From: Closterium sp. NIES-65
Taxonomy: Eukaryota > Streptophyta > Zygnematophyceae > Desmidiales > Closteriaceae
Assembly: GCA_948144175.1 (NCBI GenBank)
Contig: CANXME010000106.1
Location: 3,100,001-3,164,000, forward strand
DNA: 64,000 bases
Direction of reading: 5' to 3'
Of the stretch, positions 1,370 to 29,579 are shown piece by piece (the first letter of the stretch is position 1; every line of letters begins with the position of its first letter). Made by a program: the position numbers and the translations under genes. The notes under the pieces were generated by a model. It searched no databases, had not been told where the DNA came from, and saw only the letters and a list, made by a program, of their open reading frames with translations.

Positions 1370-1489
1370 GACAGCAGTAGACTAGCGAGACCAACTGTAG
1401 GACAGGGGCAGTGCAGTGATAAAAGCGCTGGTCTCACCAGACAGGGCAAGTCGGGCAGCTCAGTAGTGCAGTAACACGGCAACACGGCT

Positions 1490-2450: not shown

Positions 2451-2513
2451 GGGCAGGAAAAAAAAAAAAAGAGGTCGATGTGGTGGGCCCTAGGCACAGT
2501 TCCCACGTGGGAA

Positions 2514-2527
2514 CCTGCTCGATACCA
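2514..2527 (-). other. Primer-binding site (initiator-Met tRNA type)
   Basis: Directly inside the LTR the minus strand reads TGGTATCGAGCAGG. The plant initiator-Met PBS is TGGTATCAGAGC; this copy looks like that motif with one A deleted. It fixes the orientation of the element and the inner end of the LTR. Confidence 0.7.
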
Positions 2528-2658
2528 TGTGAGAATGAGAATGAGGATGAATGAACTATGAAAGAGTTGGGTACAAGTACTAACCCTAATTGGGTTGTAC
2601 CCCATATGGGCTACCCCACTACAGCCTACACAAAAGCATAAGCTATAATGTTCTGACA
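2528..2658 (-). repeat. 5' LTR of family-1 copia copy 1
   Basis: On the minus strand it starts TGTCAGAACA and ends TTCTCACA. It shares the core TGGGGTAG..CATATGGGGTAC and a stretch ending CTTGTACCCAA with the LTRs at 33734, 46434, 48808, 56125 and 57690. LTRs of this family are unusually short, about 127-131 bp. The TG..CA ends are visible and a PBS abuts the inner end. Confidence 0.88.
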
Positions 2659-3564
2659 CCCTTAAGCCGCCCTTACGGCCCCTCGCACGGCCCCTTACGG
2701 CCCCCTCGCGACGCCCGTCGGCTCCCCTCGCGGCGCCCTTACGGCCCCTTACGGCCTCGTCTTCGCCCCGTCTAGGCCCCTTACGGCCCCGTCGCCGCCC
2801 CGTCTAGGCCCCTTACGACCCCATCGCCACCCCGTCTGGGCCCCTTACGGCCCCGTCGCCGCCCCGTCTAGGCCTCTTGCGGCCCCCTCTGCGGCCCCGT
2901 CTAGGCCCCGTGCGGCCCCTCTACGGACCCGTCTAGGCCCCTTGCGGCCCTCTGCGGCCCCGTCTAGGCCCCTTGCGGCCCCGCTGCAGCCCTGTCTAGG
3001 CCCCGTGCGGCCCCTCTACGGCCCCGTCTAGGCCCCTTACGGCCCCTCTGCAGCCCCGTTGCGGCCCCTTGCGGCCCCTCTACGGCCCCGTTGCCGCCAC
3101 CTGCGGCCCCATCGCCGTCACCTGCGGCCCCGTCGCCGTCACCTGCGGACACCCCGCCGCCACCTGCAGCCCCGTCGCCACCACCTGCGGCCCTGTTGCC
3201 GCCAACTGCGGCCACGCAGCCGCCACCTGCGGCCTCGCCGCCACCTGCGGCCCCGTCGCCGTCACCTGCGGCCCCGTCGCCCTCCCCTAGCGGCCACGTC
3301 GCCGCCTCTACTTGCCCTGCCACCGCTCAGCCGCCCAGCGACCGAGCCGCCGAGCAGCCCAGCAGCCGAGCCGCTCAGCAGCCGCGCCGCCCAGCAGCCG
3401 CGCCGCCCAGCAGCCGAGCCGCCCACTTGCCGAGCAGCCGAGCCGCCCTGCAGCCGAGCCGCCCAGCAGCCGAGCCGCCCGGCCGCCGAGCCGCCGAGCC
3501 GCCCTACTGTCGATCCGCTACTGTTCCTACTGGTGAGCTCACTCCCTACTAGGCCACTGCAATC
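2659..3564 (+). repeat. GC-rich leader repeats of copia copy 2
   Basis: About 2670-3090 is built from CGGCCCCGTCTAGGCCCCTT-like units of roughly 20-40 bp. From 3090 to 3290 a CCRCCTGCGGCCCCGTCGCC type of about 21 bp follows. From 3330 to 3510 it is GCCGAGCCGCC-type repeats, the same motif found in the leaders at 8991 and 10098. The block ends just before gag at 3565. Long open frames on both strands are products of base composition. Confidence 0.75.
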
Positions 3565-6500: not shown

Positions 6501-8990
6501 GTACTGTTCCCTGCGTCTTCCTCGGCTTCCCCCCTGACGCGCCTGGGTGGAAGTTTTACCACCCCACCTCGCGCCGTGTTCTGTCCTCCCAGGACGTCAC
6601 CTTTGACGAGTCGGTGCCTTACTACCGTCTCTTCCCCTACCACGCTGCGCCCCTTCCCCCGCCGCCGCTCTTCCTTGTGCTAGGTCCTCCCCCGGTAGAC
6701 CCCCTCCCCCCTCAGGGTCCTGCCTCGTCAGGTGTGTCCCAGGTAGACGCAATCGAGCCTGTCGAGGTAGATGTTGACTCTGGTGCTGCTAGAGGTGTTG
6801 AGCCTGCGGGTGCCGGGTCAGGAGGTGCTGAGCCTACGGGTGCTGAGTCTGGGGGTGCTGGGCCTTGGGGTGCTGAGACTGGGGGTGCTGAGCCTGGGGG
6901 TGTTGGGTCTGGGGGTGCGGAGCCTGGGGGTGCGGAGCCTGGGGGTGCGGAGCCTAGGGGCGCTGGGTCTGCTCGTGTGGCCGCCGGCGGTGCTTCGTCG
7001 AGGCGGGAGCCACTCTCTCCGCAGGAGCTGCGCGAGTGGTTTGCCCGGCGCTGGAGTCGTGCTGCTGGAGCGGGAGGCACTACTGTTGCTGCTGGTTCCG
7101 GAGGTGCTCGTACTGGCGCTACTAGAGCTGGTGGGACTGGGGGTGCTGCTAGAGCTGCTGGAGTTGGTCCTGCTGGAGCTGGTGGCGGTGCTCGATCTGC
7201 CGGTCCTGCTGGAGTTGGTACTACTAGTGCTGCTGGAGCTGGAGGTACTGGGGGTATTGGCACTGGTGTTTCTACTGGCGCTGGTGCGTTTGAGGTTGCT
7301 GGAGCTGACGCTGTTGGAGCTGGAGGTGCGGCTGGTGCTGGTGCTGCTGCTGGGGGTACTGGTGCCGTCCCTGCTGGTTCTGGAGGCGCTACGCGACCGA
7401 GGCCGTACTTCGTTCCGCTCCTTGAGCAGGTTCTTGGTCTCCCGCCCTCTACTGGTCCTTCTCCTCCCTTAGAATGTCCACTGCCCGTCCAGTCGCAGTC
7501 ACAGTTACAGCCCGCCTCCCCTCTTCCTGCTCCTTCTCCCTACACTGGTCCTACTAGAGGTCCTGCTGAGCGTCGTGAACCTGCGTCTCGTCCTACGTCG
7601 CCTGTTCGCACTGCTCGCACTAGTCGTCGTGTTCCGCGTCCTCCTACGGTTCCAGGCACACACCAGATGGCACTGCGTCCTTCCACTGCTCCTCTGCGTG
7701 TCCCGTTGCCGTCTCCTCTAGAGTCCTCTCTTCCTATCCTTCCTGACCCTGAGTGTGACTCTCTTCGTGCTGCCAGTCTTACTGTCATGCGTCTCCTGGC
7801 CACTGTTGTCAGTGGCCCTTCCTTTGAGTCCACTGCTGCGTCTGCCTTAGTGGCTGAGCTTGTCGACTTCGCTGCTCGCTGTCGTCTAGACTACGCAACT
7901 AATCCTGTTGCTCAGTCCGAGTCTATCTGTTCTCCGTCCGTCGAGGGTGGGTGTGCTCTTAGCACGGACGTCCTTGAGGACAGGTAGGAGGAGTTCCAGT
8001 GTTTTGCCGCTGCTTTGCCTCATCTCGTGTCCACGCTGATTGCCCCTGAGGGAGACTCGGATGCACCAGACATCCCGACTCCTCGATCGTACGCTGAGGC
8101 GATCGAGGGTCCCTACTCCTCTCAGTGGCAGACAGCCATGGACGTAGAGATGGCTTCCTGGAAGTCCATAGGCACCTACGTCGACGAGGTTCCCCCACCT
8201 GGGGTGAACATCGTCAGTGGCATGTGGATTTTCAGGGTGAAGCGGCCGCCGGGTTCTCCGCCTGTCTTCAAGGCGCGTTACGTGGCTTGAGGCTTCAGTC
8301 AGCGGCAGGGAGTTGACTACTTTCAGACCTTCTCTCCCACCCCAAAGATGACCACTCTTCGGGTGCTGCTGCACATAGCCGCTCAGCGCGACTACGAGCT
8401 TCACTCTCTTGACTTTAGCACAGCTCTCCTGCAGGGCAGCCTGCACGAGGAGATCTGGCTGCGCCGCCCACCTGGCTTCACTGGGTCGTTTCCTCCTGGT
8501 ACCTAGTGGAGCCTCAGGCGGCCAGTCTACGGTCTCCGCCAGGCGCCCCGTGAGTGGCACGACATACTGAGGACTACGCTTGCGGCTCTTGGGTTTGCTC
8601 CTTCTACAGCCGACCCGTCGCTGTTTCTGCGCACCGACACCTCTTTGCCGGCGTTGTACATCCTCGTGTACGTTAACAACTTGGTCTTTGCCACTGGTGA
8701 CACTGCTGGACTCGCCCACGTGAAGTCCGAGCTGCAGAAGAGACACACGTGTACAGACCTGGGTGAAGTGCGCAGCTACCTTGGCTTGAGATCACCCGGG
8801 ACAGAGCACAGCACACCATTACCCTGACTCAGTCACACATGGTGCAGTAGGTCCTTCAGCGCTTCGGCTTCACGTACTCCTCGCCTCAGGCCACTCCTCT
8901 GTCTACTCGCCACTCGCTTTCAGCTTTGCCTTCGGATGAGTCCGTAGAGCCGAGTGGCCCGTACCCAGAGCTTGTTGGCTGCCTCATGTA
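3565..8990 (+). pseudogene. copia gag-pol pseudogene (family 1, copy 2)
   Basis: Gag starts at 3565, is duplicated and restarts at 3850. About 110 bp is missing at 4312. A Gly run spans about 4540-4750. Protease has D-S-G-A-S near 5297. Integrase spans about 5736-6700: HHRLGHPS zinc region, first Asp in MDVWGPAHV (5936), but the second Asp position reads L-H-P-E-R-G-G-E-F where other copies have S-D-R, and the last Glu is in GIAERRIG. A spacer with 15-bp repeats (6780-6990) precedes RT (about 8000-8990). In RT the YVDD box reads Y-V-N-N (near 8670). In-frame stops lie at 3938, 4123, 7986, 8288, 8505 and 8848 (approximate). It cannot make functional enzymes. Confidence 0.85.
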
Positions 8991-9287
8991 CCACCGAGCT
9001 GCCGGCGCCGCCGAGCTGCTGCCGAGCCGCCCGATCCACCCGAGCCGCCCAAGCCGCCGCGCCACCTGAGCCGCCAGAGACGCCGGGTCGCCGAGCCGCC
9101 GAGCTGCAGTTGCTGCCGAGCCGCTGTACCGCCGAGCCGCCCGAGCCGCCCGAGCCGCCGAGTCGCCGAGCCGCAGTTGGTGCCGAGCCGCCGTACTGCC
9201 GAGCCGCCCAAGCCGCCCGAGCCGCCGAGTTGCCGAGCCGCCGAGCTGCCGAGCCGCCCGAGCCGCCCTATCTGGTAAGAGCAGTAG
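8991..9287 (+). repeat. Family-1 copia leader fragment (left piece)
   Basis: GCCGAGCCGCCCGAGCCGCC-type repeats start abruptly after the RT of copy 2 and end CCGCCCTATCTGGTAAGAGC. That tail matches the leader end just upstream of gag at 10300-10325 (CCGCCCTGTCCGGTAAGAGC). I read it as the left part of a leader whose right part lies at 10098-10386, split by the fragment between them. Confidence 0.6.
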
Positions 9288-9330
9288 GTGAGCACGAAGA
9301 CCGGTGCACCTGCAAGGTGTGGACACTTGT

Positions 9331-9798
9331 ACCTCTCGTGCTTCACGGATGCTACCTGGGCAAGTGACACCAGTGATGCAACATCCCATGGTGGCTATGT
9401 ATGCTGTGCTGGAGGGAGTCCAGTGAGTTGGAAGTGTAAGAAGCAAGGGGAGATAGCTCACTCATCAACGGAGAGCGAGTACATGGCGTTGTTTCATGGG
9501 GTGAAGGAGGTGGTTCGGATGAGACGTTGCTTGAGGAGTTGGGGCAGGAGCAAGAGGGTCCTACACCTGTGTTTTGTGACAGCCAAGGAGCAATTCCAAT
9601 GGCTCGCAATGGTGTGCTCCATGGGCTGAACAAGCACATGCATATCAAATGGCATTGGGTGAGGAAGGAGGTGAAGAAGGGCACGGTCTCCTTGCACTAC
9701 TTCAACACTACCAAGCAACCTGCAGATTTTTTAACGAAGCGGCTTGCAGAGGATCAGCATTGGACCTGTGCCACCTTGTGTTACATGTCCTTCAACTA
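9331..9798 (+). pseudogene. copia RNase H fragment
   Basis: Recognisable copia RNase H motifs occur in order: CFTDATWASD (first catalytic Asp), HSSTESEYMAL, then after a frameshift near 9527 VFCDSQGAIPMARN, HGLNKHMHIKWHWVR and QPADFLTKRLAEDQHW, ending in TAA at 9796-9798. It is closer to the element at 34328-36737 than to family 1, which has YVDNKAMLALCRE at the equivalent place. It lacks the rest of pol, so it is a dead fragment. Confidence 0.75.
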
Positions 9799-9829
9799 AG
9801 GGGATGATTGGGCATCATGAAGCTTCAGG

Positions 9830-10097
9830 ATGGAGCTCCTCTTCAACCATTATGGGCTGCTTGAAGTGATGGATGGAGAATTGAAGAGGCCTACGAGCGA
9901 AGGAGCGACCAAAGAATGGGATCGCCGGTCCAAGGATGGATTCTTCCTTCTCTCCCAATGCCTCTCATCCAACCAGCTGCACCACATCAAGCATCTCATC
10001 AAGGAAGCTGAATGTGGTCCGAAGGCATGGAGGATATTGAAGGACGTCCATGCCCCCAGCAGCGAAGCAATGGTGGTGGTGCTCGAGCGACAACTCC
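9830..10097 (+). pseudogene. copia Gag N-terminal fragment
   Basis: An open frame starting MELLFNHYGLLEVMDGELK continues with KEWDRRSKDGFFLLSQCLSS and PKAWRILKDVHAPSSEAM. This spacing is typical of the UBN2/DUF4219-type Gag of plant copia elements. It runs straight into GCCGAGCC leader repeats at about 10098, so only about 85 Gag residues remain. Family assignment rests on motif recall. Confidence 0.6.
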
Positions 10098-10386
10098 AAG
10101 TGGTGAGCTACTGCCGAGCCGTCAGCGCCACCCGAGCCGCCCGAGCCGCCACGCCACCTGAGCCGCCCGAGCCGCCGTACCGCCGAGCCGCCCGAGCCAC
10201 CCGAGCCGCCGAGTCGCCGGGCCGCAGTTGCCGCCGAGCCGCCCGAGCCGCCCGAGCCGCCGAGTCGCCGAGCCGCCGAGCTGCAGTTCCCGCCAAGCCA
10301 CCCGAGCCGCCCTGTCCGGTAAGAGCAGCGCCTCTGTCACTGCACTGCCCTTACCCCACTATTCGCGCTACTAGTCTACTGCTGTC
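10098..10386 (+). repeat. Family-1 copia leader (right piece)
   Basis: GCCGAGCCGCC-type repeats to about 10315, followed by a non-repetitive 70-bp stretch ending CTACTGCTGTCATGG. This directly precedes the gag ATG at 10387, as at 50062 (CTCTACTGCTGTCATGG). Confidence 0.65.
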
Positions 10387-12242
10387 ATGGCTACCCCTAG
10401 TGTCCTCGCTTTTGACGCTGAGGGTCGTGCCATTGACTTTGACGTCTGGGTAGATGACCTGCAGCTTTTCCTACAGTGCGATAGGGCAGACGGTCTCTCC
10501 CTCTTTGACCTCACCTCTGGTGCCTCTCCTGCCCGTGCTGCTGATGCTGACGCCACTGTTCGCTCACAGTGGGCTACGCGCGATGCTGCTGCACGTCTTG
10601 CTTTGCGTCGCCACCTGCCTACCTCTGAGCGGGCGCACTTTAGCTAGTACAAGAGTGCTCAGACCTTGTACGACGCTGTAGTTGCGCGCTACTCCTCCCC
10701 TGCCACTGCTGCACTAAGCCGCCTCATGCTACCGTACCTCTTCCCTGACCTTGCTGCCTTTCCTACAGTCGCTGACCTCATTACGCACCTCCGCACTAGT
10801 GACACTCGCTACCGCGCTGTGCTTCCTGCTGAGTTCTGCGCCAAGAACCCCCCCCCCCATGTACATCACCCTCTACTACATAGTCACCCGGCTCCCTGAC
10901 TCCCTTCGCGTAGTCAGGGACCACTTCCTCTCAGTTTGCCCCACCACTCTCACTGTTGACCTCCTCGAGAAGGGCCTCCTAGCAGCAGAGAAGAGCATAG
11001 TCGCTGTAGGAGCCTCTCGTGGTGACCCTCGCACCCCCGTCTTTGAGGGGTGTTCCCCCTCCCCCCTTTTGCCCTTTGTTGCCTCTGCTGCTGCGGCCGG
11101 CCTCGTTGGTTTCGAGTCGGTCGGCGCTGCGTCTGCCTCGAGCGGGAGACGCCGCATCGGCAAGAGCAAGGGGGGCAAGGGTGCTGGAGGGGCTGGCGGG
11201 GGTGGCGGAGGTGGCGGTGGAGGCAGTGGAGGGGGTGGGGGTGGTGGTGGGAGTGGTGGCAGGGGTGGAGGTGTCGGTGGCGGCAGTGGAGGTGGAGGCG
11301 GCAGCGGTGGTGGCGGTGGGAGCGGAGGTGGCGGAGGTGGCGGCGGTGGAGGAGGCGGCGGCGGAGGAGGTGGAGCTGGTCGGGGTGGCGCTGCAAGAGG
11401 GTCGGCTCCGGTGGTGGTCAGCGCCAGCAGCAGCAGCAGCAGCGCACTCGTGTCATCCCCCCCCCTCAGCAGCTCCGTGAGTGGTACGCTGCACGCCAGC
11501 GGGGTGGGGGTACTGGTCCGTGCACCTACATCCTACGCACCGGCGACCGCGCGGGTGAGCAGTGCGGGGGTGCGCACTCCACCCAGCGCTGCTTTGGCCG
11601 CCTGACGGACGCTTGGCGTCACCAGTTCCTTGAGGCCACTGAGATCCCCCGCTGGGGCGAGCTGTCTTGGGCGAGAGTAGCTGTCTTTGACCTTGACTTA
11701 GATGTTATTCTTGCTGCCATGTTTGCTGTGACTATTAGTGATGAGGGTGACTGTTACCGGTGTTTTCCGCCCGACCCGGGCATTGAGACTACTGCTCTAA
11801 GTACTGGTGAGGCTGCTGCTCTAGGTGCTAGCGAGGCTGCTGCTCTAGGTGCTCGTGCGTGTGCTCCCTCAGGTGCTGGTGAGTCTGCTCTCTCAGGAAC
11901 TGCATCGGCTTCGGCCTCCCACACCTTCACCCTTGACTTGAGGGCTTCTTGCTCCTTCTTTCGAGACCGCACCATATTCACGCCGCTTGGCCGGCCAGTT
12001 GCAGTCTCTCTTGTAGACCCCTTTGGGGGTCCTGTCCTTGCTCACTTCTCCACTGTCCTCCCGTGTCCGGCGGCCCCCTCTGGCACCCTGTCTGGTCTTT
12101 ACCTCCCCTCGTTCTCTACAAACTTGGTGAGTGGTGCTGACCTACAGGATGCGGGGGTTCACTAGTTCACTCCTGCGCGTCAGCGGGTGACCTACTGCAC
12201 GGACGCTCGGACAGGCCGACACCTGGCCACGTTTACGCGTCA
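10387..12242 (+). pseudogene. copia gag-protease, 5' half of copy 3
   Basis: Gag starts MATPSVLAFDAEGRAIDFDV at 10387. An in-frame TAG (about 10645) replaces the conserved Gln of HFSQYKSAQ. Eleven Cs at 10848-10858 instead of ten shift the frame, after which Gag continues as MYITLYYIVTRLPDSLRVVR. A Gly-rich run spans about 11190-11380, then the C-x13-C-x3-H-x4-C motif. The protease region has D-L-R-A-S where other copies have D-S-G-A-S, so its catalytic triplet is lost. A TAG stands at about 12163 in GVH-stop-FTPAR. Family identity ends at about 12242 inside the pre-integrase region. Confidence 0.82.
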
Positions 12243-13131
12243 CCTCGTCAGTGGCCGCTCCTGTGTACCATTCCAAACCGCCACGTCAGGCCCAACCCTC
12301 ACATGCCGCCACGCCACACCCTTTTGCATCCGCCAACAACCCGTCCTACTTGCCACGTCACACCCCCACCAAGAGCGACGTCACCCCCCACCCACCTGAA
12401 ACGCCTCGCTTTGTCATGCGCCGCTCACGTGTACCCTTGTAGGGTGCCACGTCATCCCCAACCCTCACCTTCCCCCACGTCACACGCACCTGCATCCGCC
12501 ACGTCTTTCCCAACCCTCACCTTCCGCCACGTCACACCCTCCTGCATCCGCCACGTCCACCAACAACCAGCCCCACGTGCCACGTCACACCCTCCTGCAT
12601 CCGCCACGTTCACCAACAACCAGCCCCACGTGCCACGTCACACCCTCCCACCCCATGCCACGTCACCCCCCACCCACCTCTCACGCGTCGCCTCGTTACG
12701 CGCGGCTCCTGTGTACCATTCCAAACCACCACGACAGCCCCAACCCTCCCATTCTGCCACGCCACACCCTTTTGCATCTGCCAACAACCCGCCCTACTTG
12801 CCACGTCACACCCCCCACCAAGAGCCACGTCACACCCCCCACCAAGAGCCACGTCACCCCCCACCCACCTGAAACGCCTCGCTCCGTCATGCGGCACTCC
12901 CTTGCACCCTTTCACACCGCCACGTCATATCCCAACCCTCACCTTTTGCCATGTCACACGCACTTGCATCCGCCACGTTCACCAACAACCCGCCCCACTT
13001 GCCACGTCACACCCACCCACCCCATGCCACGTCACCCCCCACCCACCTGATACGCGTCGCCTCGTCACGCGCCGCTCCCGTGTTCCCTTCGAACCCGCCA
13101 CGTCAGCCCCAACCCCGACCTTGTTGCCACG
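12243..13131 (+). repeat. CACGTC-rich tandem repeats, about 450-bp higher-order unit
   Basis: A block opening CTCCTGTGTACCATTCCAAA at about 12260 recurs at about 12710 and in diverged form at about 13075. Inside it, shorter units (CCACGTCACACCC, CATCCGCCACG, CACCAACAACC) repeat many times. It separates the broken copia from the gene at 13132-15716. The ACGT-core motif CCACGTCA is present dozens of times. No coding function is supported. Confidence 0.75.
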
Positions 13132-15716: not shown

Positions 15717-16474
15717 GGTAATCGTAGGAAGAGCAAAGTTGCAAATCGCACGGAAGGGTTGAGCCGGTTGCGAAAGGGTTTTGCTACTGAATCCCACGAA
15801 GGCATAATCGGCCGTCTATCACTGTTATGTGTTTACGAAAACAGCCGCTTCAACTAAGTCTGAAATAGTAGCCACTATGCTTCGCGCTAAGGCCGATCTG
15901 GAGAGGCGTGTGTCAAGGCAACGAGCAGCGTCAAAGTGTTGGCCCAGGGAGTGACGGAAGCAGGTGGGTGGGGCACGAGGGTGGTTGGGGTGAGTTGCGA
16001 GACTAGAGAGAGAAATGTAACCCTATCAGGCTACATTGGACGGTGTACGTGTAGCCACCCTAGCATAAACCCACCTTCCGCTCGATCTCAGCCGCCCAAT
16101 GGCTGAAGTACCTCTTGGCTGATGACTGTGTTGCGGGGGGAATTGTTTGAGATGCGTCGGCCAATGACGGTTGCCAACACATCAATCACAACAAAGGGTA
16201 AACCTGGTGTGAAACCTACAGTGCGAAATTAGTCAAATCCCTGCAAAGTACAGTGTTTTCGGTTGCAAAGTAACAACGCATTTCATCAAACTCTAAGTTG
16301 CAACTGGTTTTGTACGGGGTTGGGGTAAGTTAATCGGTGATTCTCACGTCACACACACAACGACCGTCTTGAATTATTACTTAGGAAAGATGTACTGCGC
16401 ACTTTTAGGCTTTGCCACAATGGTTTAGGGCCAGCGGACGTCATTCTAACACGATTATCAATAATAACAAACGT
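15717..16474. other. Upstream region of the charged-protein gene, no gene seen
   Basis: Less GC-rich than the flanks. It contains no convincing open frame, and I see no clear TATA box, LTR or terminal inverted repeat. As the space between two divergent genes it should hold at least one promoter, but I cannot point to an element. Confidence 0.4.
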
Positions 16475-17133
16475 GAATCCGTTGTGGTATGGTGTTGGAT
16501 TGTCATCCATTCTTGCACAGACATTACATAAGGTGCTTAGAAGGAGTGGTATGAAGCACAGGCCCAACGCACAAGCGTAGATGCGTTATCGACAGTCATG
16601 TTTAGACTGTGCGACGATGCATCGTTCAGGCCTCCGCGTTGCGCGACTTGGTGAATCCGTTGTGGTATGGTGTTGGATTGTCATCCATTCTTGCACAGAC
16701 ATTACACAAGGTGCTTAGAAGGAGTGGTATGAAGCGCAGGCCCAACGCACAAGCGTAGATGCGTTATCGACAGCCATGTTTAGACTGTGCGACGATGCAT
16801 CGTTCAGGCCTCCGCGTTGCGCGACTTGGTGAATCCGTTGTGGTATGGTGTTGGATTGTCATCCATTCTTGCACAGACATTACACAAGGTGCTTAGAAGG
16901 AGTGGTATGAAGCGCAGGCCCAACGCACAAGCGTAGATGCATTATCGACAGCCATGTTTAGACTGTGCGACGATGCATCGTTCAGGCCTCCGCGTTGCGC
17001 GACTTGGTGAATCCGTTGTGGTATGGTGTTGGATTGTCATCCATTCTTGCACAGACATTACACAAGGTGCTTAGAAGGAGTGGTATGAAGCACAGGCCCA
17101 ACGCACAAGCGTAGATGCGTTATCGACAGCCAT
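16475..17133 (+). repeat. 178-bp tandem repeat, about 3.7 copies
   Basis: Units begin GAATCCGTTGTGGTATGGTG at 16475, 16653, 16831 and 17009, exactly 178 bp apart; the last is truncated at about 17133. Copies differ by only a few bases (for example ACATAA/ACACAA, GCGTTA/GCATTA). A smaller reading frame across it is not coding-like. It lies between the two divergent genes, where an array of transposase- or regulator-binding sites would be plausible (inference). Confidence 0.92.
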
Positions 17134-17881: not shown

Positions 17882-20800
17882 ATGGGCTCTTTACCAGGCG
17901 TCGTTTGCGAGTTCTGCAACAGATGGTTCCCCAACGCCCAAGTTTATGGTGGTCATAAGTCACGGCGGACCCCTTGCCAAGGAATATCCGCCGTGGCGAG
18001 GCCCACGCAATCTGCACCGACCGCCGGTCTTCACGCTTTGCTATTCGTCCACGACATTCTGTTGGACGCTCCAGCCGCTCCCGGTTCACCAGCGTCTAAC
18101 GCATCCAACGCCGTCAGTGTGAGCCGACCTCCACGCGTTCCTGATGCTCACGTTGACGAAACTCCCAACGACGTGAACGAGGGGCCTCCTGAAGATGAAC
18201 ATCAACCACGGCATGGAGCTCCTGCGGCTGAGACGACTGACCATCCTGAGAGCCGGCCCGAAGGGAGTCATGCCGCGCCGCCAACCGTCATCTCCGGACA
18301 GAGCAATGCCATGCCCCTCAATCCGCTCGCGTTGAAGCTACTGCATTTCGTCCGGCGCGTGAATGGCGGAATGGGAATGGCCGAGGTTGACATCAACGGC
18401 CTGCTTCAGCTAGTCGTAGAGCCCGGCCTTGCGCCTCTTGTGAACTCGGAGCTCCGGAACTGTAAGGATCTGGAGCGGTTCGAGTTGGAGCGCTTGGCAG
18501 GGCTCAATCGCGGATGGTCGGTGGCGACCTTCGAGATTGTCGGTCATCCACCACAGCGCTTGCTCTTCCAGAACTCAGCCCAGGTAAGCCGACTTTGCAT
18601 TCAAGGCCGTGAAATGATGATGAGGCACACAGGGTTTGCATGTACTTAGTTATCCTTGTATTAACCGTACACCCACCTTCTCCGCCACGAACCATGCCTC
18701 TCCTCTCACCTGCTTTCGCCACCGTACACCAGGCATTCGCTGAAATGTTTGGACATCCCAACAACGCGCCCGGCTTCAAGCTCAAGGCGCGTGTAGATGA
18801 GGACCCTGACGCAGGCGGCCGTCGCTATACCACGCCCGAAACAGGAACGTGGTGGAATGATGCTCAGGTAAGGAAAGACCACGTTGCCACCCCAAACCCA
18901 ATCCTGAGTCATGCATCCATCGCAGCACTGATCTCTCAAGAGCATCTTGAGTGTTAAACCGTGTGTCCGTTGCCGCTTTGTCGTGCACTGCAGGAACACT
19001 TCGGTTGGTCCGAAGTTGTGGGGGGGATCATCTTATATTCGGATGTGACGCACATGAGCAACAACGGCCGGAAAAAGGCGTGGCCGCTCATGATGACGCT
19101 GGCGAACATCGCCCAGGCCAAGCGATGGGGGAAAGCCGGTCACACACTACTTGCCCTCCTTCCAATCCCCCCATCTGCAATGTCTGCCGTGGAGAAGGTG
19201 ATGCTCTTCCAGCGTTGCGTCATCACCGTGCTGCAGCCGCTTCTTGATGGCATCGCCAGGTCCGTACTCGGTTTGCATCTTGCTAAGACATCATCTCACC
19301 ACCTGCATGGTATGCAAACCCTCTCTGTATGTAGCATGGCCCTTTGCCCCTCGTCGTTCCTCCCTAAAAGCCGCAACCTTGAATGCATGTTGCCACTCAC
19401 TCCATTCCTTGCAGCGGGTTCCGTCTCAGGGACCCTTTCGGAGATTGGCAAACCGTGCGGCCCCTGCTGTACGCCTGGGTGTGCGACTACCCCGAGAGCG
19501 GCAAAATCAGTTGCACACTCTCGCATGGATCGCGGATGCCGTGCAGCATCTGCTATGCTGCAAAGGTGAGGTCACATGCCATCTGCACGCATTCAATTAC
19601 ATTCCCGTTTGTGGCTCGCCTGAGCGAACCCACATAGCTACCACCCTTACCTTTTCTATCCCATCCCTCGGCCCCGTGCTACAACAGGAGCATCTGAGTG
19701 CTGTCAAGGCACAGAACACGCCGCGCACGCCTGAACAGCAGCAATGGATCGTTAACGAGGCGGCGGGGACGACAACTAGCCAGGACAACCCGTGCAAGGC
19801 CTACTCTACCTACCCTGTTGAGGTGAGTGACCTGTTTCCCCGGCCCATGAGTAGTCTATGCTCTCGCCCGCCCCGTCATGAATTGCCAGATGTGCTCTGC
19901 CCCATTGAACTCACCCGACTTGTGGTTTAGATTACCTATCCACTCTCACGTACATCTCTCCTCCATTCCCCACCACATCCCCATTTCCAGTGCGTGCTCT
20001 GGAAGTGGGATGTCCCAGGGACCGCGTGGGGCAATCCCTACCTCGTGGTGATGCCTGACATCATGCACCAGGCGGACCTAGGCATCATGAGCCACATTGT
20101 GGCTGTCGTGCGCAAGATGAAGAAGCGGCGTGTGAAGCAGATGGACAGGTCAGTGTTTTGGGGATTGGATTCGTTGCTCCTGGTCACAATTACTCAAACC
20201 ATAAGTTCTGTCCTATTACTGACCTGTTTCTGCCCTTTTGGCGCCGCTGAACTGATGTGTATGGGCAGGCGCCTGTCTCTCATTCGCGACCGCACGCGCC
20301 TGAATCACATGCGCCTGCCGGAGAGCGCCTACTTCGAGACCGGCGCATGTGTGGCGGCCTATGAGCACAGGGCCGTCATGCAGGTATAAACCCTCCATTC
20401 CCTGTTGCTTGTCCTGGCCTAAACCCTCAAGCAGTCTGCTCATGCTGCCATTGTCCGTCATGCTCCACTCCTCACACCATCTGTGCTCACCCTCCCCTTT
20501 GCTGCTATCCACGTTCTTTGCAGGTCATGGTGTTTGTTTTTGCAGGTCTGCTTCGCCAGCCCCAGATGGATGCCGTTCGTGCCTATCTTGGCTGGTACAT
20601 CCTGTGCTCCCAGCCACAGGGGCACACTGAGCGGTCCCTCCGGGAGCTGAAGAAGATGACCTCTCGGTAATAATATCACGCATGTAAATCCCTGTGCATG
20701 GGATGTATGCTTGGCTACTGTAAATGTGCTCTTGTAGTAGGCAATCTTGTGAGGATGTTGCTGCTAAACTTTGATGAAAAGGATCAGGAATAGGAAAAGC

Positions 20801-22147: not shown

Positions 22148-22202
22148 CCCCAGTTAGCACAGTTACAGAATATAATGCTCTTACCATGATATTCAGTGAC
22201 AG
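22148..22202 (-). repeat. Truncated 3' LTR of the gypsy element
   Basis: 55 bp, 54 identical to 29525-29579. On the minus strand it starts TGTCACTGAATATCATGG just after a purine-rich tract. It breaks off at 22148 after CTAACTGGGG, whereas the right copy continues into further LTR-like sequence. Confidence 0.65.
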
Positions 22203-22332: not shown

Positions 22333-25300
22333 TCAGCCACTCCATGCCCCCTCCTGTGCTCGTGCTCGGGCTGCCCGTGCACGTGTCACAGGACCCTCTT
22401 GCTGAGGCCGTCTCTCCTTCACTGCCGCCGTGTCCGTCTGGTGATCCATTGCCCGCTCTCCTCTCTCATTTTCCAGCACCAGCACCCCTGACCCTCTCAC
22501 CTCTTTAACCTTCCACCTCTCTGTTCCCAGCCCCACGTCCAGCGTGTCTTTCTTCGCTCTGCGCAGGTAGACTTCCTGTCCCTCTGTCACTGCTGGCTTC
22601 GCTTTCCTGCCTTCTTGCTGCCGTCGCTGCTCGTATCTGTGGGCATCTCTCAGCTGCGCCGTGTGCAAGTTCTCCAAGGCAGCCGGGAGCATTTCCCTCA
22701 TGTATCTTGCTCGTGCTTCTGCCAGCGCCACCCACTGTTCCGCTCCCTTCACGCTCACCACCCCCGTCAGTACCCTTGGTGCTCCCACGGGCAGTATTGG
22801 TTCCTTTCCATACAGCAGTCTATACGGGGAGTAGTCCTTTAGTGACGCCTGCTTCCCGAACCTGTACCCTACTGCCACCCAGTCTAATTCTTCATCCCAG
22901 TCCCTCTTCCGCTTTTCTCCGTACGCCCTCAGGTTCCGCTTCAAGGTCTGCACCAGCCGCTCGGTCAGCCCATCACTCTGAGGATGGTACCTTGATGTCT
23001 GCCTGTGTGTCACCCTTGCCTCGTCCAGCAGCGCTTGGAACTCCCCCTTGAATTCCGTGCCCTGATCGGTGAGTACCTCCCCTGGTGCCCCGAATCTGCA
23101 CAGCACCTGTCCCTTGAATGCCTTCGCCACACGTCTGGAATCCTTGCTCGGCAACGCACACACTTCTAACCACTTGCTTGCATGCTTCACCATGAGTAGG
23201 ATGTACCGCTGTCCTCCCCTGCTCAGCGGCAGCTCGCCGGCTATGTCCAGAGACCACCGAAACCCCAACCCTCTGATCGGCAGTGATTGCAGCTCCTGCT
23301 TCGCCTGGGTCAAGCTGGCCTTGCTTCTCTGGCAGCCTTCACAACCACTGACCCACTCTCTGACTTGCTTCCTCATCCCTTCCCACCACCAGCCGGTCTT
23401 GAGCAGCTGAGTTGTGCGCTCATGCCCGAAGTGGCCCAGCTTCCTATGCACATCCTCTATTACCCCTTCCCTCTCTTGCGGCGCAGGCACCAGCTTCCAC
23501 CCATCCACTGACTGCAGCTGCAACTGTCCCTGGTACCAACGGTAGTGGTGCCCTCGTGCTCTCACCCTGTCAATCACCTGTTCGTTCTCCTCTGTTTCCC
23601 CCTTAATCCACCGCAGGGCCGTGGGATCCTTCCATATGTCCTGTGGACCCCTCTTTCCTTGCTTTTCTGCTGCTGCCTCCTCCCCTTGCCTAGTGAGCAG
23701 CATCAGCGCGTGCACCGGCTCTGCTGCTGGCGGGTTCCTCGAGAGCCCGTCCACATGCTGCAGTGTCTTCCCCGGCCTGTGGCGTATCTTGAAATCGTAT
23801 TCCTGCAGAGTCATGGCCCAGCGCGCGTTTCTCCCCGTCAGCCCCTGGTGAGTCATCAGCCACTGCAGCGGCTGATGATCTGTGATCAGTGTGAATTCCC
23901 TCCCTTGCAGGTATACTCTGAAGTGCTTCACAGCCCATACTGCAGCCAGCCCCTCACCGTGATAAGAGCTGTACTTGGCCTCTGCTGGGTTACAGCTTCT
24001 GCTCGCGTACGCCACTACTCTCTCCTCTCCGTCCAGTTCTTGGCACAGGATTGCCCCCATACCCTGGCTGCTCCAGTCAGTGTACAAGCAGAAGGGCTTG
24101 TCGGCCTTGGGCAGCTGCAGAATCGTTGCTGTCTGCACTGCCTCCATCAGGTCTCTCAAAGCTGCTTCCTGCTCTGCCCCCCATTCCCACCTTTTGTCCT
24201 CTCTCAGCAGCCCATTCAGCGGTGATGCACGCTTGCTGAAATTAGGGACGAACCTTCGGTAGTAACTCAGAAAACCCAGCACCGCTCTCAGTCCACTTCT
24301 GTCCTTCGGCTGCTGCAGCCTATTCAACACCTCGACCTTCGCCTGCTGAATCCCTATCTGTCCGCCCCTGACCTCATACCCCAGGTACTGCACGGTCGCT
24401 TCCCCCCACCTGCATTTCTTTGGGTGGCAGGTCAGCCCTGCTGCCGCCAGCGCCTTCAGCGTCCGCTCCACGTCTCGCACGTGCTCCTCCTCACTGTTGC
24501 TGAATATCACCACGTCATCTATGTAACATGCTGCACACTCCAGCCCCCTCAGTACACTGTCCATTACCCTTTGGAAGATGGCTGACGCGTTCCTCAGCCC
24601 AAATGGCATAAACAGCCATTCGTACAACCCGTCTGCACCATGGAATGCTGTTTTACGCACGTCCTCCTTCCTGATCTTGATCTGGTTAAAGCCCTGTCTC
24701 AAATCTAGCGTGCTAAAGATCTCCCCTGCCCCCAGTCGGTCGAAAATGTCCTCCGCTATCGGCATTGGGTACCTATCGGGCACTGTCACCTTGTTCAGTG
24801 CTCGGTAATCCCAACACATACGCCGGCTCAGCACCTCTCCCAGCAGGTCCTTTCGTGCGGCTACCACTGTCGGTGTTGCGTACTCCGATTCTGATCTCTG
24901 TATCAGTCCTGCTTCTATCAATTCCTTGCATTTTTCCTTGCAGATGTCCTCATCCCCGGGTGTCATTCTCCGTTTCCTTTGAAACACCGGCTCGTCCGTG
25001 ACCAGCTTCAACTCCATCTCCTTCACTGAGCACTTTCCTAACTCCTGTAAGGTAAACGCAAAGGCATGCCTATACCTGGCCAGCACCTCCTGCACTGCCT
25101 TCTTCCCTTGCTCGCTCATTGCATTACCCACAACCCACGTTGGCTCTTCCTGAACTGCCATACACGCCCATGCCCCCACCCTTTTCACCCCTTCCTCCTC
25201 CCTTCGCGGTTTTTGCTCCCCTTCCAGCACCAGCCCTCTCCACATTCGCCGCAACAGCCACTGCATGACCTGACCGTCCATGGCCTGTCCTAACGCTTTC

Positions 25301-27339
25301 CTCCTTTCCTGTTCCGTCACCCCTGCTGCCTTGGTTATGTCTTCCCCATACCCCATCGCCAGCTCCCGCTCCAGTGCCGTTGGTTCCTCCCACTTCTTCG
25401 TCTTATGATCGTACACCATGCCTTCCCCTGGCATTCCTCCCTTCCTAAACCCTGCTGCCCCCTTGTACCCCACCAATGTCGGCCAGGCCCTGCGTACTGC
25501 CCCCACCTTGTTGCATGGGCACTGTGTCTCGTGCCTGCCCTTCTTCACCGGCGCTGCAGTCCTGCCTGGCTCTAATATCTCTTGCACCGTCCTGCTCCAG
25601 TCCCTTCGTATCCCATCCAGCTCCTTCTGCAGTTGCTCTTCCGTCACAACATTTTGCCAATACCTTCTGACACGGTGAGCCCGTGCCCCCAGCCTGGCGG
25701 CGTCACACCTTACCCCCTTCCCCAGCTTCCGTGTTACTAACTCTCGGATCTTTCTGACTGGTTCCCGGCAATCCCCCTCCATGTCCAGGTGCTCCAGTAG
25801 GTACACCACCTGCTCCTGTCTTTCTCTGATCCAGTCAATGATGCACAACAGATTAATTAGCAGTGCTCCCCTTGGATCATCCAACCCCTTTCCCTTCCCC
25901 GCTCTTGAGACGGCTTGGCACTCCCACCCTGCTACCAGTAGATCCACGTGCCCCCAGCCCCTCACCACTTCTCGTGTCACGTCCCTCACGTCGGTAAACG
26001 TCCCTGCCATTGCTTTGCTTATCACTGCTTCCTCCAGTAGTTCAGGATGCTCCTTTTGCAGTCTCTTCGCATGTCGTTCAGCCATCTTTCTCACTTGTCC
26101 ATCTTTTTCCACATATATCCACTCCTTCACCGCTACTCCCGCTCTGAGCACCGCTGCCAGCCCCGCTCCTATTCCCCCGAACAGCTCCACCAGCCTGATT
26201 GGTTCCTGCCATGCATTAGCTATTGCTGCTTCACCCACTAGGCCCGCTCTCCCTCTCCCCTCGCTTCCCGCTTGCTCAGCCGTGTACGCTCTTTTTGGCT
26301 CCTGTTTAGTGAATTGCACAGGCAGCTCACCCGTCTTGCTCCCCCGTACCCAATACTGCGTCCGAAACTTCACTTTCTCCTTCCAGGTGCAGATGGTCAT
26401 CCCCACGCCCCATATCAGGTCTGTCCCCAACAACACGTCAAAATCTTCCGAGTCTGATATCCCGCATTGTAGCCGTATACTAGTCTGTTCCTCTCTCCCC
26501 GGCATTAGGACTATTTCCACTAGGTCCCTTGTACATGGCAACCACTTGGGCTCGCCTCCTTCCGCGGTCATTACCTGCATTCCTCGCTTTATGTATTGCC
26601 CTACTTCGGTCAGCCCCAGCTTCCGTGCTAGCCTTTTTCCCAGCATCACGCTCTGCGCTCCCGTGTCCAAGATTGCTGTCTTTGCTATCTCTCCACCTAC
26701 TGCCACCGTTCCTGTCTCTGCCACTAGCACGGTTGCCTGGCTAGCTAGCCGATCCTTGGGATGCCTCGCTGGCTCTTCTCCTTCCTCACCCTTCTCCCCT
26801 GGCCTTTGTTTCGGTCTGCCCCTTTCCTTGGTCATGTGGTCCTTTCTCCCATCCCTGCCCCCGCTGCGCAGGCCCAGCTCCTCTCTGCTGCGGAGCACCA
26901 TGAAATTGTATTCCGGCTCTGGTTCCTCTATTTCTTCTGCTTCGTCATCGTCTTCCCTGGCATATAACCCTGCCTCTTTCTCCTTTTTCCTCCCCATTGC
27001 CTGTAGCTGCGCCTGTAGCCTGCCTATCTGACCCTCTATGTCTTCTGGAGTCCTCCTCGGCCCCCCTGTGCGTTGGTAACAGTCCTTCCCTTTGTGCCCC
27101 CGCTTCCCACAGACTTTGCATGTTGGTGCATCCGGGCAGTCCTTGCGGCGGTGTCCCGGCTTCCCGCAGGTGTCACAGTTCCTACAATTCCTCATCAGAT
27201 GCCCCGGCTGCTTGCATCGGTGGCAGGTGCGTGTCTCAGCTCCTCTCTCCGCTCGGCCATCCTCCCTTCCCCCCATCTCTGGCACTGCTGCTGCTGCCCA
27301 AGCGGGGTTCCTCTTCTCAGTCGGCCTCGGTAGGTACAC
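22333..27339 (-). CDS. gypsy Pol: zinc knuckles, PR, DNA methyltransferase, RT, RNase H, IN
   Basis: A 1,668-codon open frame. Residues 39-87 hold three CCHC knuckles (C-x2-C-x4-H-x4-C). The retropepsin has D-T-G-A at 225-228. A cytosine-C5 methyltransferase follows (about 383-700, see separate entry). RT is about 770-990 with LDLRQGFNQI and the YIDD box at 939-942. RNase H is about 1080-1200 (YTDWSSQG, DHQPLQWL). The integrase zinc finger (H-x3-H..C-x2-C) lies at about 1298-1336. The integrase core has D1365 (SLDIAG), D1425 (LTDQGTEF) and E1460 (LTERLVQ). I see no chromodomain at the C-terminus. All catalytic residues are present and there is no internal stop, so the enzyme set may be active. 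The frame is the same as gag, separated by one TAG; the first codon given is a GTG, so translation probably enters by readthrough rather than at its own start. Confidence 0.88.
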   Translation of the reverse strand: MYLPRPTEKRNPAWAAAAVPEMGGREDGRAERGAETRTCHRCKQPGHLMRNCRNCDTCGKPGHRRKDCPDAPTCKVCGKRGHKGKDCYQRTGGPRRTPEDIEGQIGRLQAQLQAMGRKKEKEAGLYAREDDDEAEEIEEPEPEYNFMVLRSREELGLRSGGRDGRKDHMTKERGRPKQRPGEKGEEGEEPARHPKDRLASQATVLVAETGTVAVGGEIAKTAILDTGAQSVMLGKRLARKLGLTEVGQYIKRGMQVMTAEGGEPKWLPCTRDLVEIVLMPGREEQTSIRLQCGISDSEDFDVLLGTDLIWGVGMTICTWKEKVKFRTQYWVRGSKTGELPVQFTKQEPKRAYTAEQAGSEGRGRAGLVGEAAIANAWQEPIRLVELFGGIGAGLAAVLRAGVAVKEWIYVEKDGQVRKMAERHAKRLQKEHPELLEEAVISKAMAGTFTDVRDVTREVVRGWGHVDLLVAGWECQAVSRAGKGKGLDDPRGALLINLLCIIDWIRERQEQVVYLLEHLDMEGDCREPVRKIRELVTRKLGKGVRCDAARLGARAHRVRRYWQNVVTEEQLQKELDGIRRDWSRTVQEILEPGRTAAPVKKGRHETQCPCNKVGAVRRAWPTLVGYKGAAGFRKGGMPGEGMVYDHKTKKWEEPTALERELAMGYGEDITKAAGVTEQERRKALGQAMDGQVMQWLLRRMWRGLVLEGEQKPRREEEGVKRVGAWACMAVQEEPTWVVGNAMSEQGKKAVQEVLARYRHAFAFTLQELGKCSVKEMELKLVTDEPVFQRKRRMTPGDEDICKEKCKELIEAGLIQRSESEYATPTVVAARKDLLGEVLSRRMCWDYRALNKVTVPDRYPMPIAEDIFDRLGAGEIFSTLDLRQGFNQIKIRKEDVRKTAFHGADGLYEWLFMPFGLRNASAIFQRVMDSVLRGLECAACYIDDVVIFSNSEEEHVRDVERTLKALAAAGLTCHPKKCRWGEATVQYLGYEVRGGQIGIQQAKVEVLNRLQQPKDRSGLRAVLGFLSYYRRFVPNFSKRASPLNGLLREDKRWEWGAEQEAALRDLMEAVQTATILQLPKADKPFCLYTDWSSQGMGAILCQELDGEERVVAYASRSCNPAEAKYSSYHGEGLAAVWAVKHFRVYLQGREFTLITDHQPLQWLMTHQGLTGRNARWAMTLQEYDFKIRHRPGKTLQHVDGLSRNPPAAEPVHALMLLTRQGEEAAAEKQGKRGPQDIWKDPTALRWIKGETEENEQVIDRVRARGHHYRWYQGQLQLQSVDGWKLVPAPQEREGVIEDVHRKLGHFGHERTTQLLKTGWWWEGMRKQVREWVSGCEGCQRSKASLTQAKQELQSLPIRGLGFRWSLDIAGELPLSRGGQRYILLMVKHASKWLEVCALPSKDSRRVAKAFKGQVLCRFGAPGEVLTDQGTEFKGEFQALLDEARVTHRQTSRYHPQSDGLTERLVQTLKRNLRAYGEKRKRDWDEELDWVAVGYRFGKQASLKDYSPYRLLYGKEPILPVGAPRVLTGVVSVKGAEQWVALAEARARYMREMLPAALENLHTAQLRDAHRYEQRRQQEGRKAKPAVTEGQEVYLRRAKKDTLDVGLGTERWKVKEVRGSGVLVLENERGERAMDHQTDTAAVKERRPQQEGPVTRARAARARAQEGAWSG
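25240..26195 (-). other. Cytosine-C5 DNA methyltransferase domain inside gypsy Pol
   Basis: Pol residues about 383-700. Motif I reads VELFGGIGAGLAAVLRAG (S-adenosylmethionine site). A motif II-like YVEKD follows. Motif IV reads LLVAGWECQAVSRAGKGKG with the catalytic Cys at 474, but Glu replaces the usual Pro before it. Motif VI reads LLEHLD, with His in place of Asn of the usual E-N-V. Motif VIII reads GARAHRVRRYWQN. A C-terminal part EEPTALERELAMGY leads to motif X ERRKALGQAMD. The order is that of DNA cytosine methyltransferases. Its job could be to methylate the element's own or other DNA. Retrotransposons that captured methyltransferases are known from charophyte algae and dinoflagellates (my recollection of published work). 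The altered motif IV and VI residues leave activity uncertain. Confidence 0.85.
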
Positions 27340-27351
27340 CTCGTACTTCCA

Positions 27352-27354
27352 CTA
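27352..27354 (-). promoter_or_regulatory. Amber codon between gag and pol, in one frame
   Basis: The minus strand reads GAG TTG GCG TAG TGG AAG TAC GAG: Gag ends in a single TAG and pol continues without a change of frame. This is the layout of readthrough-type gag-pol junctions, in contrast to the frameshift or fused layout of most gypsy elements. A one-base mutation of a fused frame is the alternative. Confidence 0.55.
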
Positions 27355-28857
27355 CGCCAACTCCACTCTCTCTGCTAGCTCAAACACCTCTTCAGGTGTC
27401 GCCTCAGCCCCTAGCTCGTATACTCGCATCCTCAAGCCTCCTGCCAGCCCCTTGTCTAAGCCGTTCAAGAATTTGCTAATGATCATACTGCTGTCAGTGC
27501 ACACCACGTCCTCTGCTAGGTTCATCAACCGCCCGTAGTACGTTAGAAGTGATTCCTCATCTCGACGCCTGAACTCCTGGAACTCCCTAATGCGCTGGGC
27601 CGTGTGCCCTGGAAACTGCTTCCTCACCCGATCCAGGAACAGTACTGTTGGGTCCTCGCCATCCTCCTCTGCCCTCCTCAACCATTCTCCGATTTTCATG
27701 CGGTACAGTGTCTCCGCCTCACCTCCCAGTGTGTTTGGCAGGCTTAAGAAGAACTCGGTAGGGTCCATACCGCTCCGGTCACACCTGTACTTAACATTGC
27801 TGATCTGCATCAAGTAGTTCTTCAGGCTCGGGCCAGTCCCTTCATTCCCTGTGAAGCGCACCGGTACCTCCACTCTTGGCTGCGCCGTCGTGGCCCATCT
27901 GCCTGTGTCCCAGCTTCCTGATTCTCCCCGAGCTGACTGCACAGCTCCCCGCTGCCTCCCCTTTTCTTCTCTGCTTCCCGTACTGGTCCCGTACAGCACT
28001 CGCTCCAGCCCCTTGCGGGCTGCTCTCGCTCCTCCAGATCCTTCTCCGTATGGCCGTGGCCTCCTTGGCCCTGTCGGACTTGGGCTCCTCCTCCTCTCAT
28101 CTCCATGATCTTCTTTGCGCCTTTTTGCACTATCTTGCCGCTCTGATTTCCACGCAGGTGCGCGCTCTTGGTGCCGCCGCTCAGGCTCTCCTCGCCGACA
28201 TCCTCTTTCTTCTGTTCTTGAACCATTCGGCGACCGCTGGCTTCTTTCCTTGTCACGCCTTTCTGCATCCTGCCTTCGCTCCCTTCCGCGCGGGCTTCTC
28301 TGGCGCCGATCCTCGTACTCTTCCTCCTCTTCATGATCCTCGCGCTCCGCCCCTTGCCCTTCACCCGTCGCCATACGTCTTCGGCGCTCATACCGCAGTC
28401 CTGGTTCAGGCGAGCGGAAGACACCCGCATGCGCGTTACGTCCACCTTCGCCCTCCCGATTTGCCTTCGACCGGCGTTCCGCACTCTTGGCGCTTCCTCG
28501 CGGCACGTCATTTTTACGCCGCCTCACTGGTGAGTGCTCTTCGGCCTTGCCTTCTGCCTCGTGCTTCCGCGTTCCGTTGCGTCGGCTTGGTTCCTCATCA
28601 TCCTTCTCCGCCTCTCCTTGACTTCCTCCTCCCCGCGCAGTGGGGGAATCTTCTCCGTTTTGGCTCTTGGGATGTTCGTCGCCCCGCGCAGTCGGGGATT
28701 CTCCAGCTTCGCCAATTTTGCCGTGCTGCATGCCGCCTTGCGCACCTGTCGCATCTTCATTTTCTTTCGCGCCACGACGCAGCTCGCGTTCCGCCTCTGA
28801 CGCTTCCTCATGGTATTCTTCTTCGTCCGCTTCACTCGCTGAATCAAGCGACTGCAT
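27352..28857 (-). CDS. gypsy Gag
   Basis: 501 residues from the ATG at 28857. The first 300 or so are low-complexity and rich in Glu/Arg/Ser/Asp with many R-R, R-S-P and R-R-R-S-P-like runs, resembling SR/RE-rich nuclear proteins. The last 150 residues are a typical Retrotrans_gag domain (RKQFPGHTAQRIREFQEFRR, LLTYYGRLMNLAED). Knuckles are not here but at the start of the pol frame. The stop is a TAG in frame with pol. The same frame is also open upstream, from an ATG at 29142 (MDRHELREQRTYS, RS-rich) to another TAG at 28917-28915. The true Gag may start at 29142 if that stop is read through or is a mutation. Confidence 0.8.
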   Translation of the reverse strand: MQSLDSASEADEEEYHEEASEAERELRRGAKENEDATGAQGGMQHGKIGEAGESPTARGDEHPKSQNGEDSPTARGGGSQGEAEKDDEEPSRRNGTRKHEAEGKAEEHSPVRRRKNDVPRGSAKSAERRSKANREGEGGRNAHAGVFRSPEPGLRYERRRRMATGEGQGAEREDHEEEEEYEDRRQRSPRGRERRQDAERRDKERSQRSPNGSRTEERGCRRGEPERRHQERAPAWKSERQDSAKRRKEDHGDERRRSPSPTGPRRPRPYGEGSGGARAARKGLERVLYGTSTGSREEKGRQRGAVQSARGESGSWDTGRWATTAQPRVEVPVRFTGNEGTGPSLKNYLMQISNVKYRCDRSGMDPTEFFLSLPNTLGGEAETLYRMKIGEWLRRAEEDGEDPTVLFLDRVRKQFPGHTAQRIREFQEFRRRDEESLLTYYGRLMNLAEDVVCTDSSMIISKFLNGLDKGLAGGLRMRVYELGAEATPEEVFELAERVELA

Positions 28858-29142
28858 GTCGACGTCGCCATCGTATTGGCGCGCGCGTCCTCCGTGCTGT
28901 CCCTCCGGCAGATTCTACGGATCGCTCCTCGCTGGCCTTCTCCACGGCTCAGATCTGACGCGCGGATCCGATCCATCATCACCACGGTGTCTGCCCGTAG
29001 GTGTCACCAAGTCCGCGCGGTACGCTGCTCTGCGTGGCGAGCGTGTTGGCGACCTCCCGCGCTCCGATGCGCGCCTCCTCCGCGACGGTGAACGCTCCCG
29101 CCGTGAGTACGTACGCTGCTCGCGCAGCTCATGGCGATCCAT

Positions 29143-29524: not shown

Positions 29525-29579
29525 CCCCAGTTAGCACAGTTACAGAATATAATGCTCTTACCATGATATTGAGTGACAG
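29525..29579 (-). repeat. Outer end of the gypsy 5' LTR (shared 55 bp)
   Basis: The minus strand begins TGTCACTCAATATCATGG, matching the left copy with one change. The LTR should extend leftwards into 29.2-29.5 kb, but its inner boundary and PBS cannot be fixed because the left LTR is truncated. To the right, family-1 integrase (HHRLGHPS) resumes at once. Confidence 0.6.

Follow-up and report, generated by a model that had tools for sequence, protein, structure and literature searches.

Retrotransposons are usually victims of DNA methylation, and elements that carry a methylation writer of their own invert this role. Does an alga of the green lineage harbor such an element, and what might its enzyme act on? 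The question is raised by a 64,000-nucleotide stretch of Closterium sp. NIES-65 (assembly GCA_948144175.1, contig CANXME010000106.1, positions 3,100,001 to 3,164,000; hereafter the window, whose numbering is used throughout), where an initial annotation, made from the sequence alone, had placed a cytosine DNA methyltransferase inside the Pol protein of a Gypsy-type retrotransposon, between protease (PR) and reverse transcriptase (RT).

A DNMT3-type methyltransferase is embedded in a Gypsy Pol

The Pol reading frame runs along the minus strand at 22336-27351 (1672 codons, stop codon at 22333-22335), and the methyltransferase occupies 25237-26220 (about residues 378-705); over this interval the minus-strand frame is open, while the plus-strand translation is broken by stops. 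As annotated, five motifs follow one another in order, and PR, RT, RNase H and integrase (IN) share their frame: motif I (26161-26190), motif IV (25906-25932, with Glu 477 and Cys 478), motif VI (25783-25800, with Glu 520 and His 521 in the usual ENV), motif VIII (AHRVR, 25651-25680, with Arg 560 and Arg 562) and motif X (25276-25305). The Pfam family PF00145 was matched with 24.7 bits (E = 1.9e-5), a thin margin over the cut-off of 22. The best solved relatives were DNMT3C, DNMT3A and DNMT3B, with an E-value of 9.8e-7 for the single sequence and of 4.9e-25 for a profile built from 12 element domains, and fold comparison returned a strong match to the DNMT3 fold with the motifs in canonical order. 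With both a family match and a fitting fold, the proposed C5 methyltransferase in a Gypsy Pol stands. Phage and giant-virus C5 methyltransferases were also matched in a fold search with viral models, at E-values weaker than those of DNMT3. Membership of the DRM family, in which motifs VI-X lie ahead of motifs I-V, is rejected by the canonical order, and domestication as a host gene is unsupported because the domain sits in a full Pol.

Along Pol, Pfam matches are ordered as zinc knuckles (three CCHC stretches, 27067-27225 as taken from the translation; PF00098, E = 5.5e-9), retropepsin-like aspartic protease (26419-26706; PF13650, residues 216-311, 26.4 bits against a cut-off of 24.3), C5 methyltransferase, RT (24370-24822; PF00078, residues 844-994, E = 9.2e-31), RNase H (23797-24102; PF17917, residues 1084-1185, E = 1e-35) and integrase with its H2C2 zinc domain and DDE core (22981-23481; PF17921, residues 1291-1345, and PF00665, residues 1365-1457), all on the minus strand. 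The PR-RT-RNase H-DDE integrase order is that of Ty3/Gypsy elements. Among solved structures, the Pol frame taken as a whole is closest to Ty3 (E = 2.5e-82), and the RT part to Ty3 RT (E = 4.2e-67). Membership of the DIRS group is rejected, as Pol contains the DDE integrase PF00665 and gave no Pfam match to a tyrosine recombinase at E up to 1. We conclude, with near certainty, that the element represents a Ty3/Gypsy long terminal repeat (LTR) retrotransposon family of Closterium with a DNMT3-type methyltransferase between protease and RT.

Related elements carry the domain at two places in Pol

A protein search with residues 378-740, in which the 7988 candidates with most shared words were scored, found 28 proteins: 18 from Closterium (NIES-53, 54 or 68), one from Marchantia polymorpha, one from Klebsormidium nitens and 8 others. 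The closest, P0003, aligns to 99% of the query at 69% identity and is without the motif IV stretch. Two more searches yielded 22 and 120 matches, mainly Klebsormidium-type and metagenomic. The PR-methyltransferase-RT order recurs in the Closterium relatives and in P0019, and a gag-PR-methyltransferase order is found in Klebsormidium.

For phylogeny, 87 rows were prepared (element matches that span 235 or more of the 328 profile positions, 4 additional matches, 9 phage rows and one DNMT3A), from which 26 (23 metagenome, 3 phage) were dropped to give a 61-row tree. The element methyltransferases, 50 rows, lie on one side of this tree (99/99) and form two halves, one of Klebsormidium type (27 rows, 99/99), the other comprising Closterium, P0019, Marchantia with P0020, and elements carrying the domain on the integrase side (23 rows, 99/94). 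The Closterium domain thus shares a clade with Klebsormidium elements, which bears out the initial annotation where it names charophytes as carriers of methyltransferase-bearing retrotransposons. The six phage rows kept in the tree and P0159 fall outside the clade. The tree holds only one DNMT3A row, on a long branch, and no plant host DNMT3 row; the long branches of P0159 and DNMT3A weaken its rooting, and it does not name the captured host enzyme. A bacterial or phage origin of the domain is rejected: besides the position of the phage rows, only L081 among 62 prokaryotic loci carries a clade member, and this contig, labelled cyanobacterial, reads as a misbinned algal one. P0159, a Gypsy Pol in which a distant C5 methyltransferase with Pro-Cys lies between RNase H and integrase, may be a separate capture. 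In the RT tree, Klebsormidium P0097, a partial and long row, groups with the protease-side elements (84/91), unlike in the methyltransferase tree, where the Klebsormidium half stands apart. Because the two trees place Klebsormidium rows differently, they are suggestive of module exchange between element lineages.

How does the window element compare with known systems? The kind itself is already described: KnitGypsy-Dnmt3 of Klebsormidium nitens (de Mendoza et al. 2018, PMC5890265) likewise combines a Gypsy Pol with a DNMT3-type domain of unrearranged motifs, and shares with the window element the methyltransferase clade and the protease-side position. Klebsormidium-type rows differ by having Pro-Cys in motif IV and are 33-35% identical to the window in the domain; P0027 and its near relatives stop shortly after the domain, with RT outside the predicted protein, whereas the window RT lies in the same frame. 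For the Klebsormidium element, DIRS-like repeats are described (PMC5890265), a feature not seen in the window element. Retrotransposon-borne C5 methyltransferases are also known from Symbiodinium, but SymbioDIRS-Dnmt3 is a DIRS element with a tyrosine recombinase and SymbioLINE-Dnmt a LINE (PMC5890265).

Six metagenomic Gypsy elements (P0021, P0022, P0023, P0024, P0026 and P0029) belong to the same tree half (99/94) as the window element and, like it, have Glu-Cys in motif IV (6/6); in the four of six that include RT, it is 41-44% identical to that of the window. They differ in carrying the domain between RNase H and integrase and, in five of six (P0021, P0022, P0023, P0026, P0029), a PHD finger beyond the integrase. 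P0021 also has, at residue 767, a 2A-like DVEPNPGP between protease and RT, present in 1 of 163 proteins examined. Marchantia polymorpha MARPO_0020s0163 (P0025), P0020 and L081 share with the window element the tree half and the protease-side position, and differ in having Pro-Cys; the predicted protein P0025 represents a land-plant carrier. In L081 (1-6203), a single TAG followed by CAATCA divides one frame into gag-PR-methyltransferase and RT-RNase H-integrase; the TAG with its context fits the tobamovirus leaky-stop consensus. If this TAG is leaky, the methyltransferase would be made at Gag level and RT by readthrough.

Retrotransposons with cytosine or adenine methylases are reported from green algae and charophytes and as absent from tracheophytes (PMC6338049), so that green-algal carriers are not news, and streptophyte retrotransposon DNMT3s are mentioned in general terms (PMC12344493). 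In the excerpts available, the words 'methyltransferase' and 'retrotransposon' were not found in the Closterium genome paper (PMC10407611), nor any mention of DNMT in the Zygnema genome paper (PMC9915684), nor anything on such elements in PMC6453930 and PMC9033089. Literature searches on Closterium, on Marchantia, on other carriers and on the motif IV Pro brought up, among the matches listed, no papers beyond those cited. As far as they show, the novelties are the carriers in Closterium and Marchantia, the branch with Glu-Cys, and the integrase-side elements with a PHD finger.

A glutamate replaces the motif IV proline

Motif IV of the window element contains the catalytic Cys, and the Pro expected ahead of it is Glu; the motif VI Glu (Glu 520) and the motif VIII Arg pair (Arg 560 and Arg 562) are present. 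The change of Pro to Glu and that of Asn to His in ENV had both been singled out initially. Both are in the DNA as given, yet they are of unequal standing: an equivalent of Glu 477 occurs in 21 of 21 readable rows across three element groups, and His 521 is confined to Closterium, where 6 of 16 rows have it. Among rows covering the column, Glu stands ahead of the Cys position in Closterium (14/14), in the integrase-side elements (6/6) and in P0019. Pro is found there in 94 of 97 Klebsormidium-like rows (the remaining three have Leu, Leu and Ser), in P0020 and Marchantia (2/2), in P0159 and in three of four microbial rows. The remaining microbial row, P0160, is a C5 methyltransferase split by an intein with a LAGLIDADG-like match. 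Pro also precedes Cys in all 158 matches on 142 prokaryotic and viral loci (covering 62 of 62 and 80 of 111 relatives, L081, read as algal, among them), which were fetched with patterns admitting Glu or Pro and disfavoring other letters.

The Cys is retained by 20 of 21 Glu rows, P0004 having Ser, and by 95 of 97 Klebsormidium-like rows. Also preserved in the Glu-Cys rows are the motif VI Glu (23/23) and the two motif VIII Arg (18/18 for the first, 17/17 for the second). Of the 324 columns of the tree alignment, 28 are invariant across its 18 Glu-Cys rows, and that of Glu 477 is among them. A single origin of Glu-Cys was not rejected by the approximately unbiased (AU) test (p = 0.218), and the best tree requires two changes. 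Since the ENV Asn, which is judged not directly catalytic, forms a hydrogen bond with the motif IV Pro carbonyl (PMC4802922), the Glu 477 and His 521 changes sit at one contact. The conserved Glu-Cys loop offers a natural test of whether the motif IV Pro is needed for catalysis, and a handle on what a retrotransposon-borne methyltransferase acts on.

What could the methyltransferase do for the element?

The initial annotation proposed that the element may methylate itself or its host. The domain, its place in the order of Pol, its fold and homology and its conserved catalytic residues are established, and catalysis, substrate, timing and benefit are inferred. The location in Pol suggests that the methyltransferase is packaged with RT. 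The element protease would free the domain or leave it joined to RT, the domain would travel with the cDNA, and the methyltransferase would act on newly made cDNA or on the fresh insert, where methylation could disguise the copy as host DNA, protect it or establish its chromatin. That the module turns up in Closterium, Klebsormidium and a Marchantia record, and at two Pol positions, points to an association of long standing and not to an accident. Retention of the Cys, of the motif VI Glu and of the motif VIII Arg argues for activity; overall, the domain is more likely than not an active methyltransferase. Related DIRS-borne DNMT3s gave CG methylation in yeast, and methylation of cDNA has been proposed for DIRS elements (PMC5890265); on the simplest reading, the element's own cDNA or insert would likewise be the main target, a suggestion we make tentatively. 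As a whole, we give the explanation of a Gypsy Pol with a DNMT3-type enzyme methylating its own cDNA or insert a probability of about 50%.

Several points weigh against it. The motif IV Pro is termed invariant, and OsDRM3, which has Cys without this Pro, is predicted to be inactive (PMC2965745). The Klebsormidium enzyme, the nearest tested relative, produced no methylation in yeast, a result its authors regard as inconclusive, and elements without a methyltransferase move too (PMC5890265). Finally, the domain is less conserved than RT: between the window and P0003, identity is 135/164 (82%) for the methyltransferase core, 91/105 (87%) for the C-terminal part of the domain, 222/235 (94%) for RT and 75-79% for the linkers. 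Comparisons with P0005, P0004, P0006, P0011 and P0019 are alike, the domain ranking below RT and above the linker to RT. On these identities, constraint on the domain appears weaker than on RT and only somewhat stronger than on linkers.

Such variability, together with the loss of the Pro, would suit a non-catalytic relic or scaffold that binds nucleic acid or host methyltransferases and recruits or blocks them. DRM3 and DNMT3L, which are without Pro-Cys, are taken as inactive yet needed for methylation, and OsDRM3, like the window element, keeps the Cys and has no Pro ahead of it (PMC2965745). However, DRM3 and OsDRM3 have rearranged motifs and have lost several catalytic residues (PMC2965745), whereas the window domain follows the DNMT3 order and nearly all readable Glu-Cys rows keep Cys, the motif VI Glu and both motif VIII Arg. 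Drift is also unlikely for Glu 477 because its column is invariant. We consider a scaffold less likely than self-methylation by an active enzyme.

The fixed Glu could instead mark a green-lineage Gypsy branch whose altered C5 methyltransferase gained a new substrate (RNA, single-stranded DNA or RNA-DNA hybrid) or a new chemistry, fitted to reverse transcription, and whose module settled at two places in Pol, an idea we put forward as a speculative one. Rather improbable, too, is the case of an active enzyme whose main substrate is not double-stranded DNA but RNA, or an RNA-DNA hybrid, within the reverse transcription complex (template, tRNA primer). The altered catalytic loop is fixed in a branch of reverse-transcribing elements, RNA methylation has been proposed for LINE-borne DNMTs (PMC5890265), and DNMT2, an RNA methyltransferase, belongs to the same fold family; both fold and sequence, however, indicate DNMT3 over DNMT2. 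Chance similarity, or an assembly artefact fusing an unrelated gene to Pol, could draw on a Pfam score just 2.7 bits over the cut-off but is ruled out by the fold match and the many separate relatives, and its probability is negligible.

State of the copy and its surroundings

Upstream of Pol, a minus-strand frame of 520 codons (27355-28914), closed by the in-frame TAG at 27352-27354, gave no Pfam match at E up to 1; its position and its similarity to the start of P0007 point to gag. A single open frame spans zinc knuckles to integrase, with none of the three stop codons inside the 1672 Pol codons, and the bulk of gag lies upstream of this TAG. The gag frame is broken by this TAG and by another at 28915-28917, above which the frame would also belong to gag. 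Because P0007 and P0008, both predicted proteins, show a sense codon at the same place, a programmed stop between gag and Pol is disfavored and the TAG at 27352-27354 reads as a lesion of this copy, with readthrough a possibility. Unless the stops are read through, this copy is probably defective.

The element ends are marked by a 55-bp terminal direct repeat: the start of the presumed 5' LTR (29525-29579) is identical at 54 of 55 positions to the 3' repeat (22148-22202), which is truncated: it breaks off after 55 bp and corresponds to no more than the initial 55 bp of the 5' repeat. Split repeats like those of DIRS elements were considered; one 55-bp pair was detected and no second pair. No target-site duplication is readable at the element ends. 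The 5' end is inserted in a copia element, whose homology picks up again in the flank at 29579.

The surroundings, at 1-13000 and 29579-64000, form a nest of copia-type elements with numerous partial copies that resemble one another (matches to RVT_2, SH3_retrovirus, rve and gag). Beyond the 3' end of the element, a Plavaka-type transposase is matched at 18958-19566 (PF18759, 39.5 bits), and a tandem repeat with a 178-bp period, whose copies are 98-99% identical, occupies 16473-17133.
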